Shown here: piece by piece, positions 10,988-19,786 of the stretch
How the letters are laid out: every line of letters starts with the position of its first letter
Numbering within the stretch: position 1 is the stretch's first letter
IMG/VR virus record: IMGVR_UViG_3300023180_000042
Coordinates: 1-64,000 of that record
DNA from: a virus
DNA: 64,000 nucleotides
Direction: 5' to 3' (one strand)
The notes under the pieces: model-generated
Database searches by the model: none
Told to the model about the DNA's origin: nothing
What the model saw: the letters and a program-made list of their open reading frames with translations, nothing else
Made by a program: the position numbers and the translations under genes

Positions 10988-11220
10988 TGAGCAGATATGT
11001 ACCTGTGAAGGGGCACTCTGGCTTAGTTCGTGACACATATTCCAACGCATTGATTAACACCAATGCTCAGGAGATCGAACAAGCCAGAGAGCGTAAACGC
11101 CTCCGTCAACTTGAAAAAGCCCAAAAACAATCACTTGAACAAAAGGTAGAGACTATCGAAAAGGATCTGGATGAAATAAAAAGTATGTTGAAAGACTTGA
11201 TCCACAATTCTTATAAATAA
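10987..11220 (+). CDS. Small coiled-coil virion-associated protein
   Basis: 77 residues. The N-terminal half (MSRYVPVKGHSGLVRDTYSN, ALINTN) resembles a short conserved protein found among marine T4-like structural genes; the C-terminal half (KQSLEQKVETIEKDLDEIKS) is a clear coiled coil. Function unknown. Translationally coupled to the giant gene upstream by a one-base overlap. Its TAA stop lies in the late promoter of the next gene. Confidence 0.7.
   Translation: MSRYVPVKGHSGLVRDTYSNALINTNAQEIEQARERKRLRQLEKAQKQSLEQKVETIEKDLDEIKSMLKDLIHNSYK
11212..11219 (+). promoter_or_regulatory. T4-type late promoter for giant repeat protein
   Basis: Exact TATAAATA overlapping the upstream stop (11218-11220) and 41 bases before the ATG at 11253. 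Confidence 0.8.
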
Positions 11221-11252: not shown

Positions 11253-14200
11253 ATGTCTTATCGTCCTCTCAAACACTTAAATGAAGGTGCGTTCAAAGAG
11301 CTACTGACTTCTGAAGAAGACTATCTGGCTTATCGAGCGGGTGTTCATTTAAGTAAAATGACAACAAGTGATTTGTCTGCGCTTTCTACTAACGCGGCAG
11401 GCGAACTTGTTGGTACGTTTGAAGACACTTTTTATACCTCTGGTCTAGGTCCCATTCCTGGCTCGACAATTACTCGCACAATTGCGATTACTCATGCATC
11501 TGATCCTGCTGGATCAACGCACACTTCTACGTTTGGTGCTTTCACGCCTTTACCCACTGTTGTTTATGTGGGAGACACAATTGAACTAACAATTCAAGGC
11601 ACAGCGACAAACACAGGCATTGGATTTGAAGAGATTGAATATCAGTTAGGTATTTCTGGTAGCGCGGCTATAGGAACTATTACTACGACTCCTTCGCCAG
11701 CGGCAACGAGTACGAGTGCAAACGGTCGAGAAGTATCGTGGGAAAATTATCCTGACGGCAATCTTAGCGGTTCTTATCAAGTCACGTGGTCTATTCCGAT
11801 TACCGATGATGGCGTAATCAACTTCACACTCAACGGTACTACTACTGATTTTCAAAACAGTGTTGTAAGTTCTACCGATGCTGAAGTGCTACCTTCTGTT
11901 CGTGTAGAGCCACAGTTGAAGCCAACTACTTCGGCTACACTGTATGAATTATATCAGAACGATGCGAATGTAGCAACCATCGACAACGACAATGCTCTAA
12001 AAAGAAATCCACTCTATTGGGATCGAACTGCAACGCCTGCTGGCTTGAAAGAAATGAGCGATGCAGAACTCGATATTGTAGTTCAAAGACTTCTTTTAAA
12101 AATCTTTGCAAACGATCTTCCCGGTCAGTATCGCCTTGCTACAGTATCTCCGGGCGCACAGTGGTCAGAGTTTATCGCAGATGTATTTGAAGACACTCGT
12201 GGTGACGGTTCACTTGTTACTTATTCTATCTGGGTCAAAACAACCGCAACAGTTCCGACAGTAGTTAAACCTATTTCGCCTTTACGTCAACCGTTGACTA
12301 ACAAGTTTCAAGGTATAAAGGATCTTAATGATTTAGAACTTGAAATGACTTTCGGCGAACGAATGAAGCAGGTTATTCAAGACACTGGCATTGGTAAGTA
12401 TCAACTTCGATCTTCTGCTGACGGACCACCTACAGATCCAGGTACGTGGGAAGCACGTGGTAGTGCAATCGATACAAACCTAACTTACGAATCTGAAACG
12501 GCTTATATTTCAACCGATTCGTATGATATTAACTACGCTTCGCAGTATCAAGGTTCATATGTTCCTGATTACATAGGCGAGTACATTGACACATACGAAT
12601 CCAACTATCTTGGTGAATACGGCGCTACTTATACATCATCTTATACTGGCAATTACGAGGCTACGTACATCGGTACGTTTAGTGGTGATTACGCGCAGAG
12701 TTATATAGGCGATTATCTTCTTGAGTACGCTCAATCTTATGAGAGTGGTTATGAAGGTGAATATGTTCCCAATTATTCGGGTCTTACTGTTGAAGAGCAG
12801 TACACGACCATTTACGAAGCTGAGGACGCGATTGAATTTTATGCGTCAGCATACGCAGAACTTTATGGTGATCTTCCTGTAATTTATACGGGCAACTATG
12901 TTACTCAGTACGTCGAGGAAGTTTATACAGGTAACTTTACGGAACTGTATGTCGGCGATTACGTCATAGACTATAGTGGTAACTTTACAGAAAATTACAT
13001 CGATGATGTCTATACAGGTAACTATATTGACGTATACACTGGCGACTACACAGAAAATTATGAAGGCAACTTTACCGTTAACTATATTCAAACTGAATAT
13101 GCCGGTAACTTTACACAGCCGTACACTGGTGATTTTACAGCCGCATACTCTACGTCTTATGCAGTTACTTACGCACAAGAAAACTATACTGGTAACTATC
13201 AATCAGATTATGCTTCTGAATATCAAGTGCCTTACACAGGCGACTTCTTAGCCACTTATATTCAGTTGATTTACGGTGGTAATTTCATCGAACAATACAG
13301 CGGTGACTTTACTGCAACTTATGCGGGCAACTTTACCGAAACTTATACTCAAGCCCAATATACTGGTAACTACTTGTCACAGTACGCTGGCAACTATCAG
13401 TCTGATTATTCTGGCGATTATATTGGAACTTATGAGCAACAGACTTACACGGGTAACTATATTTCTGATTACACGGGTAACTATCAGTCTCAGTATTCTG
13501 GTGACTTTACTGCCACTTATGCTCAAGCACAATACACAGGTGACTTCATTGTAAGTTACTCTGGTGACTTTATTGCTACATTCCAAGGACAGTATGAAGG
13601 CAATTATCAGTCTCAATACACTGGTAACTTCTTACAGGACTATACTGGTAACTTTATTCAAGGTTTTGAAGGACAATATCAAGGTAACTATCAAGTCAAC
13701 TATGACGGTAATTACATTTCGGACTATGTTACTGCTAGTTACACAGGCGACTTCTTGGCTGTTTATTCGGGCAACTTTGTAGAAACGTTCGAAGGTCAGT
13801 ACACTGGTAACTATCTTTCGACGTATGCTGGCAACTATACTTCAGATTACGTCGGCGATTTTGTTCAGACATTCCAAGGGCAATATGTCACTGTTTACGA
13901 AGAGCCGTATACCGGTAACTTTGTAAACACATTTATTTCTGCTGACTATACAGGCGATTACATCTCGCAATACGAGAGTAATTTCTTGCAAGCGTATTCT
14001 GGTAATTACGTCTCACTTTATGTGCAAGCCAACTATACTGGCAACTTCGCGGCTCAATATACTGGCGACTTTACCGCAAACTATCAAGGCGATTTTCTAA
14101 CTACATTCGTTGATGCGAACTACACTGGTAACTATGCTTCGGATTATGTTCGTGCGTCTTATACCGGTAACTTCCTAGCCACATATTCTGGCGATTTTCT

Positions 14201-17200
14201 TGCCTCTTATACCGGTGACTTTGTTACAACGTTCGTTGATGCGAACTATACTGGTAACTATGTTAGTCAATATTTGGGGACTCGGAATGTAACTTATTCG
14301 GGTAACTACATTTCGAATTACGCACAGGCGAACTATACGGGTAACTTCCTTGCAACATTCGTTGATGCAAACTACACAGGCAACTTCCTAGTAACTTATG
14401 CTGGCGACTTTACTGCTACATTCCAAGGGCAGTATCAAGGTGACTATGAGTCGGGCTATGCTGGCTCATTCGTCGCTCGATATACTGGTGACTTCTTAGG
14501 AACATTCCAGGGTCAATATGTTGGTGATTTCTTAGCCAACTATGATGGCAACTTTATTGCAAATTACGCTGGCGACTTCCTTGCTACGTTCCAAGGGCAG
14601 TATGTTGGTGACTATGTTGGTCAGTATACAAGACAAATCAACGTAGGCTATACAGGAAGCTTTCTGGCGACATTCCAGGGACAGTACACAGGTTCGTTTT
14701 CTCAAACTTATGTAGGGACTTACACAGGCACATATGTCGGTAACTACACTGGTACATATGTCGGAAACTATGCTGGTGCTTATGTATCGGCGGCAGCCAC
14801 TTATCAAGGTGGCTACGCCGGTGCTGCCGCTTGGACATCGTACTTCTTCAGTCTTAGTTCTCCTCGTTATTACTGGTATACGACACAAGCAAGATTTGCT
14901 TTTCCCGTAAACCGTTGGTTTTATTGGAATAATTCATTTCAATCATTGGCGAGCATTGCCAATGACGGATTAGTTCCCTTTTTTAGTCGCGGTTTTGAAT
15001 ATGAAGCGGGTACCATACAATATCAGACAGGATCGTCTTTAAGCACTCTCCGCAACTATTACAATATCAGACGCCGGTCAATTTTTGGTGGCTCAACATA
15101 CACTGGCGGATATACCGGCGGTGGCGGCACTTATACAGGAACATATGTTGGTTCGATTCAGCAAACCTATACTGGCTCGATTCAACAGTCGTACGATGGT
15201 AATTATATTGGCTCTGTTAACATAACATTCGTTGACGCAAACTATACTGGTGACTATCTTGGTCAGTATATACGAGCAATTAATCAAAGTTACACAAGTG
15301 TGTTCCAACAAACATTCGTTGATGCAAACTACACTGGTAACTTTATTGTTAATTATTCAGGCGATTATGTTTCTCGTTATACGGGCAACTTCCTTGCAAC
15401 GTTCGTTGATGCAAACTACTCTGGTAACTTCTTAGCGACATATACCGGCAACTATACTGGTGTATATGTTGGTAGCTTCCTTGCAACGTTTGTTGATGCA
15501 AACTATGTGGGTAACTATGTTTCGAACTATACCGGTGACTTCTTAGGAACGTTCCAGGGTCAGTACGTTGGTGATTTCTTAGCAACATTCCAAGGTCAGT
15601 ATCAAGGCGATTTTATTGCGAACTACGTTGCAACGTTCGAACAAAATTACACTGGTGACTTCCTTGCTACGTTCCAAGGCCAGTATCTGGGTAACTTTGT
15701 AACGCCTTATACTGGCAACTATATTTCAAATTATGCTGGCGACTTTACGGCGGCGTATACTGGAAACTATGTTGGCGATTTCTTAGCCACGTTCCAGGGA
15801 CAATATCTGGGTAACTTTACTGTACAATATACCGGTAATTATCTGAGTCAATATACTTCTGATTTCTTAGCCACGTTCCAGGGACAGTATGTCGGTGATT
15901 ACATTTCGAACTATAATGCAGACTTCAATACTCAGTATCAGTCAAACTTTACGGCAACGTTCCAGGGTCAGTACATTGGTGATTTCTTAGCAACATACAC
16001 TGGCACTTATGACACAATATATGTTCAAGCCGACTACACTGGTAACTTCGTCACAACATACAGTGGTGATTATATCTCTGATTACACCGGTGACTTTACT
16101 GCCAACTTCGTTTCACAGCAATACACTGGTGATTATATCTCTGATTACACTGGTAACTTTGCAGTAACGTATACTGGTAATTATCTCGGCGATTACGTTT
16201 CGCGATACACTGGCGACTACGTTGGAAATTACGCCGATCAAGTGTACGGTGGTGACTTTACTCAAGTCTATACTGGCGACTTTACGAATAACTACGTTGG
16301 CGATTATATTTCTACATACGCTCAAGCAGATTATTCTGGTAACTACGTATCAAATTATCAGGGTAACTTCACGGCGCAGTTCGAAGGTCAATACGTAGGC
16401 AACTTCTTAGAAGATTATACGGGCGACTTTACAGCTATTTACTCTGGTGACTTCCTTCAAGGATTTGCTGGTCAATACGAAGGTAATTATATTACTCCGT
16501 ATACCGGTGATTATATTTCAGCCTATACTGGTGATTTTCTTGCAACGTTTGAAGGTCAATATGTTGGCGATTTCATCGTACAATACACTGGTAACTTCAT
16601 CGAAACTTATGAAGCAGACTTCGTACAAGATTTTGAAGGTCAGTATACTGGTAACTATCAGTCTGACTATACTGGCGATTATGTCGCAATTTATACTGGT
16701 GACTTCTTACAGATTTTCCAAGGGCAATATGTCGGCGATTACGTAAAAGCATATATCGGCAATTATCAGTCAGCCTATACGGGCGATTTCGTATCGATAT
16801 TTGAAGGTCAGTACACCGGTGATTATCTGTCTGATTACACTGGTAACTATCAAGCAAATTATTCAGGCGACTATCTGTCTAACTTCGAAGGTCAGTACAC
16901 TGGTGACTTTATCGTAACATACACAGGCAATTACGAAGTAGACTACACGGGCGACTTTGTTGAATCATACACCCAAGATTATGAGCAAGACTACATAGAA
17001 GATTATGTTGCTCAAGAAGCATACGTAACGGCTTATGCTGGAAACTACACTCCAACATACGAAACAGTTTATACTGGTGATTATACTCCTGATTACGAAG
17101 GTCCATCGGGCGACTATTTAGGAACCTATCTTTCGAATTACACTGAAGAGTTGTATGCGCAAGAGTTTACGGTTGACTACATATCATTAGACTATACGAG

Positions 17201-17495
17201 AAATCGCGAAGAAAGTTACACTGGTGATTCTTATATAGAAACGTACACAACTGATTTCGAATCAAGTACTGATTACGCCACTTATTTGGGCGGTGATGAT
17301 AATGAAGAATATGTAGGAACATTTGAGGGCGCGGGAGATGCAGAAGTTTATGGTGGTTCTCCTTATGAAGGATCTAGTTACGTATCTGATTACAATCGAG
17401 TAGTTACCATCGCAGAAGCATATTTGGATGACGCTAAATTAACATCAACACCAGTAACAATTGAGACATTTACATTATACGTACGTGTTGCTTAA
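11253..17495 (+). CDS. Giant Tyr-Gly octad-repeat virion fibre-like protein
   Basis: 2080 residues. Residues 1-410 are non-repetitive, with an Ig-like beta region and a conserved-looking FQGIKDLNDLELEMTF block. From about 413 to 1960 the chain is built of octads [YF]-x-G-[ND]-[YF]-x-x-x (YTGNYVSQ, YSGDFLAT), spaced by 5-residue units such as FVDAN and by FQGQYxGDF variants. An island at about 1180-1280 rich in Trp/Tyr/Arg interrupts the repeats. The C-terminal 120 residues are acidic and then non-repetitive. No cysteine is seen and almost no Lys lies in the repeats. The regular aromatic spacing suggests a stacked beta structure (solenoid or fibre). Own late promoter; likely a long virion appendage (inference). 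Confidence 0.8.
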   Translation: MSYRPLKHLNEGAFKELLTSEEDYLAYRAGVHLSKMTTSDLSALSTNAAGELVGTFEDTFYTSGLGPIPGSTITRTIAITHASDPAGSTHTSTFGAFTPLPTVVYVGDTIELTIQGTATNTGIGFEEIEYQLGISGSAAIGTITTTPSPAATSTSANGREVSWENYPDGNLSGSYQVTWSIPITDDGVINFTLNGTTTDFQNSVVSSTDAEVLPSVRVEPQLKPTTSATLYELYQNDANVATIDNDNALKRNPLYWDRTATPAGLKEMSDAELDIVVQRLLLKIFANDLPGQYRLATVSPGAQWSEFIADVFEDTRGDGSLVTYSIWVKTTATVPTVVKPISPLRQPLTNKFQGIKDLNDLELEMTFGERMKQVIQDTGIGKYQLRSSADGPPTDPGTWEARGSAIDTNLTYESETAYISTDSYDINYASQYQGSYVPDYIGEYIDTYESNYLGEYGATYTSSYTGNYEATYIGTFSGDYAQSYIGDYLLEYAQSYESGYEGEYVPNYSGLTVEEQYTTIYEAEDAIEFYASAYAELYGDLPVIYTGNYVTQYVEEVYTGNFTELYVGDYVIDYSGNFTENYIDDVYTGNYIDVYTGDYTENYEGNFTVNYIQTEYAGNFTQPYTGDFTAAYSTSYAVTYAQENYTGNYQSDYASEYQVPYTGDFLATYIQLIYGGNFIEQYSGDFTATYAGNFTETYTQAQYTGNYLSQYAGNYQSDYSGDYIGTYEQQTYTGNYISDYTGNYQSQYSGDFTATYAQAQYTGDFIVSYSGDFIATFQGQYEGNYQSQYTGNFLQDYTGNFIQGFEGQYQGNYQVNYDGNYISDYVTASYTGDFLAVYSGNFVETFEGQYTGNYLSTYAGNYTSDYVGDFVQTFQGQYVTVYEEPYTGNFVNTFISADYTGDYISQYESNFLQAYSGNYVSLYVQANYTGNFAAQYTGDFTANYQGDFLTTFVDANYTGNYASDYVRASYTGNFLATYSGDFLASYTGDFVTTFVDANYTGNYVSQYLGTRNVTYSGNYISNYAQANYTGNFLATFVDANYTGNFLVTYAGDFTATFQGQYQGDYESGYAGSFVARYTGDFLGTFQGQYVGDFLANYDGNFIANYAGDFLATFQGQYVGDYVGQYTRQINVGYTGSFLATFQGQYTGSFSQTYVGTYTGTYVGNYTGTYVGNYAGAYVSAAATYQGGYAGAAAWTSYFFSLSSPRYYWYTTQARFAFPVNRWFYWNNSFQSLASIANDGLVPFFSRGFEYEAGTIQYQTGSSLSTLRNYYNIRRRSIFGGSTYTGGYTGGGGTYTGTYVGSIQQTYTGSIQQSYDGNYIGSVNITFVDANYTGDYLGQYIRAINQSYTSVFQQTFVDANYTGNFIVNYSGDYVSRYTGNFLATFVDANYSGNFLATYTGNYTGVYVGSFLATFVDANYVGNYVSNYTGDFLGTFQGQYVGDFLATFQGQYQGDFIANYVATFEQNYTGDFLATFQGQYLGNFVTPYTGNYISNYAGDFTAAYTGNYVGDFLATFQGQYLGNFTVQYTGNYLSQYTSDFLATFQGQYVGDYISNYNADFNTQYQSNFTATFQGQYIGDFLATYTGTYDTIYVQADYTGNFVTTYSGDYISDYTGDFTANFVSQQYTGDYISDYTGNFAVTYTGNYLGDYVSRYTGDYVGNYADQVYGGDFTQVYTGDFTNNYVGDYISTYAQADYSGNYVSNYQGNFTAQFEGQYVGNFLEDYTGDFTAIYSGDFLQGFAGQYEGNYITPYTGDYISAYTGDFLATFEGQYVGDFIVQYTGNFIETYEADFVQDFEGQYTGNYQSDYTGDYVAIYTGDFLQIFQGQYVGDYVKAYIGNYQSAYTGDFVSIFEGQYTGDYLSDYTGNYQANYSGDYLSNFEGQYTGDFIVTYTGNYEVDYTGDFVESYTQDYEQDYIEDYVAQEAYVTAYAGNYTPTYETVYTGDYTPDYEGPSGDYLGTYLSNYTEELYAQEFTVDYISLDYTRNREESYTGDSYIETYTTDFESSTDYATYLGGDDNEEYVGTFEGAGDAEVYGGSPYEGSSYVSDYNRVVTIAEAYLDDAKLTSTPVTIETFTLYVRVA
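12490..17130 (+). repeat. Coding tandem repeats, Tyr-Gly-Asn/Asp octads
   Basis: In-frame 24-base units encoding [YF]-x-G-[ND]-[YF]-x-x-x, well over one hundred by eye. Codons vary freely between units (TATACTGGTAAC, TACACAGGCGAC, TACACGGGTAAC), so the array is old and held by protein selection rather than recent DNA duplication. Some segments, such as those coding TFVDANYTGN, recur almost unchanged at the DNA level (for example near 14105, 14230, 14360, 15315, 15405), suggesting limited later exchange. Confidence 0.85.
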
Positions 17496-17510: not shown

Positions 17511-17990
17511 ATGGCAAAGTATGAGTACTTAGATAATGCATTTTGGGAAGCAGAAGATCGCTCAATCGTAAAATGCATTAGGCTAACTACGCTTGAAGGT
17601 CAAGAAGGCAAGAAGAAAAAAGACGTTATGGAGTTTCGCAAGATTCGTCCTGATGGCTCTGAATGCCCTCACTATAAAGAAGTGGTAACAAAAGTAGGCA
17701 TTCCAAAGATTGATGAGAATACTGCTGAACGTAAAGAAAGAAAAGAGCGTGAAGTAAGAGAAAAACGCGCTCATCACGAGCAAAAGAAAAAGACTGCTGA
17801 ACTAGAGCAACTTTTCAATCTTAAGCTTCAAGCCTTTGAAATTGAAGAGATTAAAAATTCTGAAGATCGTGTATTACGTGGCAAGATTCGTAGAGCGCAA
17901 AATGTAGTAGAAATGAATGCGTTGTGTGCAGTTTTGATCGCAAAAGAATTGGGCTATTATGGAGACAAAGATGACGCAGGAGCCAACTAA
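17511..17990 (+). CDS. Charged coiled-coil protein of unknown function
   Basis: 159 residues, ATG 15 bases after the giant repeat gene with a GGAG ribosome site. N-terminal 70 residues are mixed; residues about 70-125 are Lys/Glu/Arg-rich helix (ERKERKEREVREKRAHHEQK). I do not recognise a family. It lies between the repeat protein and the glycosyltransferase-like gene, whose start it overlaps, so the three are probably co-expressed. It could be an assembly chaperone or adaptor for the fibre; this is inference. Confidence 0.65.
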   Translation: MAKYEYLDNAFWEAEDRSIVKCIRLTTLEGQEGKKKKDVMEFRKIRPDGSECPHYKEVVTKVGIPKIDENTAERKERKEREVREKRAHHEQKKKTAELEQLFNLKLQAFEIEEIKNSEDRVLRGKIRRAQNVVEMNALCAVLIAKELGYYGDKDDAGAN

Positions 17991-18708
17991 GGGTTACGTA
18001 ATCGTTGCGTCACGGCGAAGTTTCTTTTATGTGTCTGCACTTAATTTGATGGAATCAATTCGCGATTTTTATCCTGATGCAAATATCTGTCTAGTCTGTG
18101 AAGAAAAGTTTCTTGATGATCGAGGACGAAAACTCGCCAACGAAATAATTTTCTGTAACGATCACAAGCGAGCCAAACTTTGGGGCATGGCAAAGTCTCC
18201 ATGGGATATTACATTCTATATTGACGCAGACACAGAAGTCGAGCATGAAGACATTGAACATGTCTTTGGCGAACTGAATGGCTATGATGTCATGTACACT
18301 GGTCTTCCCGAAGAACGTTCTTACTGTTATGCAGAACTGAAGTTTCCTGGTGGTCAATTCGAACTGTGTGGGGCAGTGTGTCTGTATGACATGCGCAATC
18401 CATTAGTGCGCGAGTTTATGTGGGACTGGTATGATCTGACTGTTCAACAATACGCAGGCACTTGGTGGCCACAGAAAGAAGATGGAACAGAAGATACTGA
18501 ATTATATCCTGCAACGTTGAAGCGTTGGGATCAATTCTCTCTTTGGTGGCTTGTAAACAAAGAGCCCAAGTATCAAGACTTGAAAGTGGGTATCTTTGAA
18601 GATGACGCCAGATGGAACTATTTTTCACGCTATAAATATGCTCACAACAAGAAGCCTGTTGTTATTAGACATTATTCTGCTTCTGAAGCGAAGCATATGG
18701 AGTTTTGA
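17971..18708 (+). CDS. GT-A-like glycosyltransferase
   Basis: 245 residues from the ATG at 17971, chosen because GGAG lies 6 bases upstream; an in-frame ATG at 17959 adds 4 residues. A Rossmann-like start (YVIVASRRSFFYVSALNLME) leads to a DxD motif in FYIDADTEVE (residues about 85-87), the metal/nucleotide-sugar site of GT-A enzymes, then FPGGQFELCGAVCLY and a Trp-rich acceptor-side region. Overlaps the upstream gene by 20 bases and the next by one. Likely sugar transfer onto a virion or host target; acceptor unknown. The adjacent fibre is an attractive substrate by context only. Confidence 0.7.
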   Translation: MTQEPTKGYVIVASRRSFFYVSALNLMESIRDFYPDANICLVCEEKFLDDRGRKLANEIIFCNDHKRAKLWGMAKSPWDITFYIDADTEVEHEDIEHVFGELNGYDVMYTGLPEERSYCYAELKFPGGQFELCGAVCLYDMRNPLVREFMWDWYDLTVQQYAGTWWPQKEDGTEDTELYPATLKRWDQFSLWWLVNKEPKYQDLKVGIFEDDARWNYFSRYKYAHNKKPVVIRHYSASEAKHMEF

Positions 18709-19385
18709 TGAGAGATATTCCACTTAACGATTTTGCATTAGACATCTTAGATGATGCGCTTTGGTTCACTCAAGACAAGAACTATGAGACTGTTGTGCTA
18801 ACAAAGAAAGATAAGCACACCAAAGAAGATGCTGACTGGTATACCGGCGAAGCATACTTCAAACAAATTATGGCGCAAGGTACAGGTCATAATGGATTTC
18901 CAGAAATTGTGGTATCTCATGGTTTTGGCATTGGTCAAATGCATTTCTCTAAAGAGAGAACTTCGCAGGCAAGAATTCCTGAAGTCTCTATGAAACAGGA
19001 TGCGTTTTTGCAAAAAATACAAACTACGTTCAATTTGAAACGTAATGCTCTATTTGCGGTTTATCCGCCAGGTGGTTACATTTCTTGGCACAACAATGCG
19101 AATGCTTCTGCATTCAACTGCGTCTTTACTTGGAGCGAAACCGGCGATGGTTGGTGGAAGCACTGGGATAATGAAAAGAAAGAAATGGTAACGATACCTG
19201 ATAAGAAAGGCTGGCAATGTAAAGTTGGTTACTTTGGTGCGTACGAAGATCCTGCCGAAAAGCTAGTGTATCACACAGCACGAAATGGCGACACAGGTTT
19301 ACGCATGACAGTTGCATTTGTGCTTGACAGATCAGAGATGGCTATAGGAATGCAAGATTGGATTATTGAAGATATTCACGCCTAA
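18708..19385 (+). CDS. 2OG-Fe(II) oxygenase-like protein
   Basis: 225 residues from the ATG that shares one base with the glycosyltransferase stop (TGATG), with GGAG 5 bases upstream. The C-terminal half resembles the 2-oxoglutarate/Fe(II) double-stranded beta-helix fold: YPPGGYISWHNN with H128, then VYHTARNGDTGLRMTVAF with H189 and R199 in the places of the distal His and 2OG-binding Arg. The usual HxD is HxN here, which would weaken iron binding, so it may be a divergent or inactive member. Related oxygenases are common in marine T4-likes near tail genes. Possible role: hydroxylation of a structural protein. Confidence 0.5.
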   Translation: MRDIPLNDFALDILDDALWFTQDKNYETVVLTKKDKHTKEDADWYTGEAYFKQIMAQGTGHNGFPEIVVSHGFGIGQMHFSKERTSQARIPEVSMKQDAFLQKIQTTFNLKRNALFAVYPPGGYISWHNNANASAFNCVFTWSETGDGWWKHWDNEKKEMVTIPDKKGWQCKVGYFGAYEDPAEKLVYHTARNGDTGLRMTVAFVLDRSEMAIGMQDWIIEDIHA

Positions 19386-19390
19386 ATTAT

Positions 19391-19398
19391 TATAAATA
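19391..19398 (+). promoter_or_regulatory. T4-type late promoter
   Basis: Exact TATAAATA in the 47-base gap after the oxygenase-like gene, 42 bases before the ATG at 19433. Confidence 0.8.
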
Positions 19399-19432: not shown

Positions 19433-19786
19433 ATGGCAAGGTATGAAGAATTAACTATCGATCAGGGAACAGATGTTTCTCTTGACGTGTATCTTACGAA
19501 CATCGATGGTTCACCAAAAGATTTGTCTGGCTATTCAGCCGCGGCTAAAATGAGTACGCGGTATGACGTTGATAGCTCAGATAAAATCTCTTTCGACGCT
19601 TATGTCACTGTCCCTCCAACTGCCGGCATTGTTAACTTATCTTTGACAAACACCGTCACAGATACGCTAAATAGTAAAAGAAAATATGTTTACGATATGG
19701 AAATTTCATATCAAGACAGCGATGCCAACACTATCGTAGAAAGAGTTCTTGAAGGACTTATAACAGTAACGCCTTCGGTAACATGA
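19433..19786 (+). CDS. Small beta-sandwich structural protein
   Basis: 117 residues, all beta-type sequence: EELTIDQGTDVSLDVYLTNI, then KDLSGYSAAAKM and a closing strand pair VYDMEISYQD. The pattern resembles N-terminal domains of phage upper-baseplate or fibre proteins (BppU-like Ig domain), but identity is too weak for a firm name. First gene of a fibre-type operon with its own late promoter; the next gene begins 7 bases later. Confidence 0.6.
   Translation: MARYEELTIDQGTDVSLDVYLTNIDGSPKDLSGYSAAAKMSTRYDVDSSDKISFDAYVTVPPTAGIVNLSLTNTVTDTLNSKRKYVYDMEISYQDSDANTIVERVLEGLITVTPSVT

Follow-up and report, generated by a model that had tools for sequence, protein, structure and literature searches.

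Directly behind the gene for a giant repeat protein lie three tightly packed genes, two of which appear to encode enzymes, and the question raised by this locus is what those enzymes act upon. The DNA analysed here (the window) is a single strand of 64,000 nt, positions 1–64,000 of the 74-kb IMG/VR record IMGVR_UViG_3300023180_000042, and covers a region of late structural genes in a T4-like phage. The initial annotation had placed the three genes at 17511–19385 and read them as a dedicated fibre-modification cassette. The open reading frames are found there, right behind the repeat gene, in the following arrangement.

11212–11219 (+): late-promoter-like box TATAAATA before the repeat fibre gene
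11253–17495 (+): aromatic-repeat fibre gene, 2080 aa, with a conserved N-terminal domain, repeats and a C-terminal tag
17463–17492 (+): C-terminal tag of the repeat fibre, ETFTLYVRVA
17511–17990 (+): adaptor gene, 159 aa
17971–18708 (+): glycosyltransferase (GT) gene, 245 aa from the likely ATG
18223–18231 (+): DxD motif D85-A-D87 in GT, both Asp invariant
18631–18638 (+): late-promoter-like box TATAAATA within the GT gene, 77 bases ahead of the OG gene
18708–19385 (+): 2OG-oxygenase-fold (OG) gene, 225 aa from the ATG at 18708
19089–19097 (+): H128-N129-N130 (HxN), predicted metal-site motif in OG, Asn at +2 invariant
19391–19398 (+): late-promoter-like box TATAAATA after OG, ahead of the fibre-assembly gene
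19433–19786 (+): downstream tail-fibre assembly gene, a conserved neighbour (PHROG 3304 / 1084; 1.6e-12, 4.3e-20)

Gene layout and late-promoter-like boxes

The adaptor gene starts 15 bases past the end of the repeat gene and overlaps the GT gene, which in turn overlaps the OG gene by TGATG. The list of open reading frames has GT starting at 17959, with the likely ATG at 17971, and gives TTG at 18705 as an upstream alternative start for OG. Among IMG/VR relatives (478 oxygenases and 354 GTs) the adaptor, GT and OG all recur as conserved families in unchanged order, and because they do so we regard them as real genes. Alignment of relatives identifies the adaptor as a conserved family, and it is probably a charged, helical or coiled-coil protein. 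A natural adaptor-GT fusion of 561 aa is present in one relative (L311, 8295–9980), with the adaptor at residues 33–163 and the GT at 329–551, and this fusion ties the adaptor to GT function. The linker between the two parts of the fusion is ~165 residues long.

The sequence TATAAATA occurs 14 times in the window, compared with 2.4 expected from shuffles. The boxes at 11212 and 19391 bracket the repeat gene through OG, consistent with one late operon, and the box at 19391 is predicted to start the next transcript. It had been claimed that no late promoter lies between the genes. This is correct for the gene junctions, but the box at 18631 lies inside the GT gene and is found at the same position in 5/6 relatives. 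This internal box may give OG a late transcript of its own, or it may be a by-product of protein conservation.

Predicted folds and active sites

To model the two enzymes we used alignments drawn from relatives' loci, with C48C1 rows left out. The AlphaFold (AF2) model of GT has a mean pLDDT of 96.5 and adopts a GT-A (GT8) fold, with glycogenin as the top match (Z 17.4 over 193 residues, rmsd 3.5, 16% identity), followed by Skp1 galactosyltransferase, GlyE, UGGT and LgtC; WbbM is also among the matches. Across 32 diverse sequences, down to 26% identity, D85, D87, D187 and H234 are invariant. Judged by position, D85, D87 and H234 would correspond to the DxD and late His metal ligands of glycogenin. 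The suggestion of a GT-A-like enzyme with a DAD motif is thus borne out by a GT8-like predicted fold and by the invariance of both Asp residues.

By sequence the relationship is far fainter. When a family profile was built from the 32 sequences, its top PDB sequence was glycogenin, at the weak E of 0.035; a 7-sequence GT profile gave no match in the same kind of search. None of 55 GT family members matched Pfam PF01501 (GT8), with 0/11 genomes above the cut-off; weak matches to the unnamed PHROG 1903 were found for 13/55 GTs (best 6.2e-6), the window GT not among them. Neither Pfam nor PHROG gave a significant match to any of the window's own adaptor, GT and OG. We accordingly label the enzyme GT8-like and do not file it as GT8 by sequence. 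Glycogenin is a GT8 Tyr-O-glucosyltransferase. It resembles our GT in being its best fold match and weak top profile match and in sharing the DxD and late His; GT differs from it in having no Pfam GT8 match and in that Tyr is scarce in some of the putative substrate fibres.

The AF2 model of OG (mean pLDDT 92.6) adopts the double-stranded beta-helix fold of 2-oxoglutarate (2OG) oxygenases, with PHD2 (Z 11.3), PiuC (10.7) and P4H (10.5) as its best matches; chlorovirus collagen prolyl hydroxylase (Z 9.7) and the amino-acid halogenases BesD and HalB (9.5) also match. OG shares with PHD2, bacterial P4H, PiuC and the chlorovirus enzyme this fold (Z 9.7–11.3) and the motif order H..H..R, but it has an invariant Asn in place of their Asp ligand, and the repeats that are its putative substrate are Pro-poor. 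In the OG motif YPPGG(Y/F)IxWHNN, Asn lies two residues past the first His, where HxD/E has its carboxylate, so that the first and distal His of the usual HxD/E...H metal triad are kept and the acidic residue is not. R199, the 2OG-binding-type Arg, is invariant and lies 10 residues past H189.

The oxygenases were first found with HNN patterns; this ascertainment risk was removed by counting HxN only on oxygenases in loci reached through the GT gene. Asn occupies the +2 position in all 147 of these, with the middle residue varying among N, H, T, D and S, and the distal His and Arg are present in 146/146 that could be aligned. The fold and motif order together place Asn130 in the predicted metal site. 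Since OG has HxN and not HxD/E, plain hydroxylation cannot be assumed. The 2OG-oxygenase-like assignment is therefore retained for the predicted fold, and its customary chemistry is not.

Without the usual carboxylate, OG may be inactive or may carry out other chemistry. One reading is that it is a structural or binding relative, such as a folding helper, rather than a working oxygenase. HxN replaces HxD/E in every sequence, as this reading would have it, and oxygenase sequence profiles matched no known Pfam oxygenase family. Nor did comparison with PDB sequences yield anything useful, and weak matches to PHROG 81 (2OG-Fe(II) oxygenases) were limited to 4/65 oxygenases (best 8.5e-4), a set that excludes the window OG. 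We nonetheless consider a non-catalytic OG unlikely. Only 8 columns are invariant in 58 diverse oxygenases and H128, N130, H189 and R199 are among them; because of this the sites have the pattern of selection on an active site, and the predicted H/N/H/R set points to one that is used. Human AspH, moreover, hydroxylates without a carboxylate ligand, even with a single His, and halogenases likewise work without the metal carboxylate (PMC10947486).

Linkage of the enzymes to the fibre

Scans with OG, GT and the fibre N-terminal domain reached ~400 loci, many of them sharing contigs, and occurrences were hence counted by cluster. The OG- and GT-anchored scans cover the best 80 matches each, and several hundred further relatives may hold rarer contexts. 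Among the matches listed, the order repeat fibre, adaptor, GT, OG (and chaperone) was found in 133/155 OG clusters and 121/131 GT clusters at 90% identity. When clustered at 60% identity, again among the matches listed, all three partners were nearby in 49/56 OG clusters and 26/27 GT clusters, the 27th GT cluster being the adaptor-GT fusion. The linkage also holds from the other side: starting from the fibre N-terminal domain, all 56 contigs that extend past the fibre carry the cassette, and 22 others end too early. The anticipated co-occurrence of the three genes with the repeat gene across contigs was thus observed. The layout varies in a few loci: an unrelated gene lies between fibre and cassette in L148, L274 and L298, a second fibre gene lies inside the cassette in L077, and in L385 the fibre, adaptor and GT genes have no oxygenase nearby. 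L060, L069, L412 and L077 each have a pair of repeat-fibre genes that share their N-terminal domain and are placed ahead of the cassette or inside it.

Among the matches listed, frequent occurrence of the enzymes without a repeat protein was not seen for GT. For OG it was confined there to a minority branch that lies away from the repeat fibre and comprises two clusters in the head-gene region plus another paralogue elsewhere. The head-region genes form a second HxN oxygenase branch (L019, 18267–18920, C48C1 CDS0017; L162–L181), flanked on one side by UvsY and on the other by a tail-tube-like gene that follows the major head gene. This position suggests that their substrate is another protein of the virion. 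The paralogue (L184, 131–805, C48C1 CDS0046) is a third oxygenase with HTN, located in the replication region and adjoining the gene for a NifU-like Fe-S protein. In the genome collection, oxygenase relatives were found at 3 loci, all in metagenome-assembled contigs: L417, L418 and L419, binned as Bifidobacterium breve and Sphingobacteriales. These are probably phage contigs that were wrongly binned, or contamination.

Searching 50,697 phage records (INPHARED) with tblastn from several starting points, we found a match only in C48C1 (Kyanoviridae), the nearest annotated relative, in which the cassette genes are annotated as hypothetical proteins. C48C1 holds all three oxygenase kinds (cassette, head-region and HTN paralogue), and the cassette linkage is maintained there though its repeat is very different. 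A literature search found no paper on C48C1 or on the cassette.

The fibre itself is far more changeable than the enzymes encoded behind it. In L005, GT and OG are 81% and 76% identical to those of the window and the repeat 39%. Fibres of relatives range from 230 to 3347 aa, the shortest cut by contig ends; the 3347-aa protein is CDS0201 of C48C1, and short natural forms include those of L071 (351 aa) and L055 (437 aa). Their repeats, mostly [YF]xG[NDT], place an aromatic residue at every fourth position; the window fibre has 314 aromatic spacings of exactly 4, and the 'octad' repeat of the initial annotation is better described as a period-4 aromatic lattice. Thr, Tyr, Asn and Asp are abundant in the repeats and Gly and Ser are also common, but there is little Lys (0.5%) or Pro (1.6%). 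With almost no Lys or Pro, and with period-4 aromatic repeats in place of Gly-X-Y, collagen-type Lys/Pro hydroxylation is unlikely.

The initial annotation had the repeat supplying hundreds of Tyr, Thr, Asn and Asp side chains. Fibres range from Tyr-rich to Phe-rich, the two residues interchange freely, and the repeat zone of one fibre (L076) has only 2% Tyr. Because Phe-rich fibres keep the cassette, Tyr is not obligatory, and strict Tyr-O-glucosylation by GT was dropped as a candidate. None of the residues with a hydroxyl or amide side chain is plentiful throughout the fibres, with repeat-zone minima of 2% for Tyr, 2% for Thr and 1% for Asn and Asp together.

Given that no repeat residue is indispensable, the enzymes could act only on the parts common to nearly all fibres, the N-terminal domain or the C-terminal tag, for example licensing chaperone docking or attachment, and leave the repeats alone. 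The tag (TYTLYVRxA, or a distant form xxLWLRTA) closes 216/244 repeat proteins; among the other ORFs of at least 150 aa it does so in 3/1711. It is possibly a dock for a chaperone, the adaptor or an enzyme. Arginine hydroxylases of the 2OG type are known, and the tag has a conserved Arg at its end. That the tag or N-terminal domain is the sole target is nevertheless improbable, as it leaves unexplained why the enzymes track the aromatic-repeat fibre and not any tagged protein, and the tagless fibres of L014, L125 and L136 still have the cassette.

The GT, with or without the oxygenase, might instead modify the host LPS O-chain against superinfection, and be merely carried in a host-recognition cluster. 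GT8 genes in the host-recognition clusters of pelagimyophages have been interpreted in this way (PMC7029224), and the LPS builders LgtC and WbbM are among the GT fold matches. Yet the host-surface genes of such regions are described as variable, with no conserved order, whereas in 26/27 clusters GT keeps to a single fibre type, the adaptor and the oxygenase. An LPS substrate also leaves the adaptor-GT fusion and the tagged fibre unexplained, and co-expression with fibre genes would be late for surface exclusion. We regard it as quite improbable. The pelagimyophage genes resemble ours in belonging to a variable fibre region of marine T4-like phages; they differ in being read as LPS enzymes, whereas here GT is tied one-to-one to the fibre (PMC7029224).

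The least likely alternative, and a very improbable one, is that the enzymes hypermodify DNA, with the oxygenase hydroxylating a base and GT glycosylating it. Base-J-type and T-even precedents pair such enzymes. Against this, the genes belong to the fibre operon in nearly every genome, the OG fold matches are led by protein hydroxylases with no TET/JBP profile matches, and GT matches GT8-type enzymes, with no DNA glucosyltransferase among the listed matches.

A proposed fibre-modification cassette

Genomic linkage alone cannot name a substrate. Taken with the predicted folds, the two-way linkage leads us to favour, at a probability of roughly 60%, a cassette dedicated to tail-fibre modification in T4-like (Pantevenvirales) phages, which would use it to decorate their own fibres. 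The original proposal is upheld in its enzyme classes, from structure prediction, and in its linkage; its focus on Tyr is weakened, and plain hydroxylation cannot be taken for granted. The fibre is probably the main substrate of both enzymes, and we lean towards GT adding sugar to it.

Under the favoured reading, the repeat fibre, adaptor, GT and 2OG oxygenase would be made together late in infection. The adaptor would hold GT on the fibre or deliver it there, perhaps via the conserved N-terminal domain or the C-terminal tag, and GT would glycosylate hydroxyl side chains of the repeats, on Thr/Ser and on Tyr where present. The oxygenase would oxidise the same fibre, most likely by adding a hydroxyl group to an aliphatic or beta carbon, which might create extra sites for sugar. 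Such modification might make the shaft soluble, stiff or antigenically variable, or yield a tuned adhesin. That the oxygenase acts before GT on the same residues is a guess modelled on collagen and mimivirus (PMC9546862), and rather less likely than not. A bolder version, which we think unlikely, has phage-only 2OG-type HxN iron enzymes installing a new modification along hundreds of repeats, for example beta-hydroxylation or halogenation of the Tyr/Phe aromatic lattice; the adaptor-guided glycogenin-like GT would then add sugar, with the C-terminal tag as the recognition handle and the repeats freely rewritable.

As a kind, the proposed cassette resembles virus-encoded modification of a virus's own repetitive proteins. 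The Mimivirus collagen-modifying system comprises L230, a lysyl hydroxylase/glucosyltransferase, together with R699 and the collagen-like L71 (PMC9546862). In both cases the viral genome combines a gene for a repetitive structural protein with those for a 2OG oxygenase and glycosyltransferases that modify it or, here, are proposed to do so. Mimivirus is a giant virus, whereas ours is a phage whose repeats are almost without Lys and Pro, whose glycogenin-like GT is a separate protein, whose oxygenase has HxN, and whose genes form one tight operon in which a small adaptor is nearly always present. As far as we have checked, the enzyme families, the HxN site, the adaptor and the tag are new to systems of this kind.

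If this reading is correct, many T4-like phages encode the machinery to modify the giant fibre of the host-recognition region after translation. Adsorption and host range would then need rereading, as would the glycosyltransferases in such genomes that are taken to be 'LPS-modifying'. The cassette would also be a means of decorating repeat proteins in the cytoplasm with the products of one operon, and its HxN oxygenase family would be a test of how much departure from the iron-ligand rules nature allows in 2OG enzymes.
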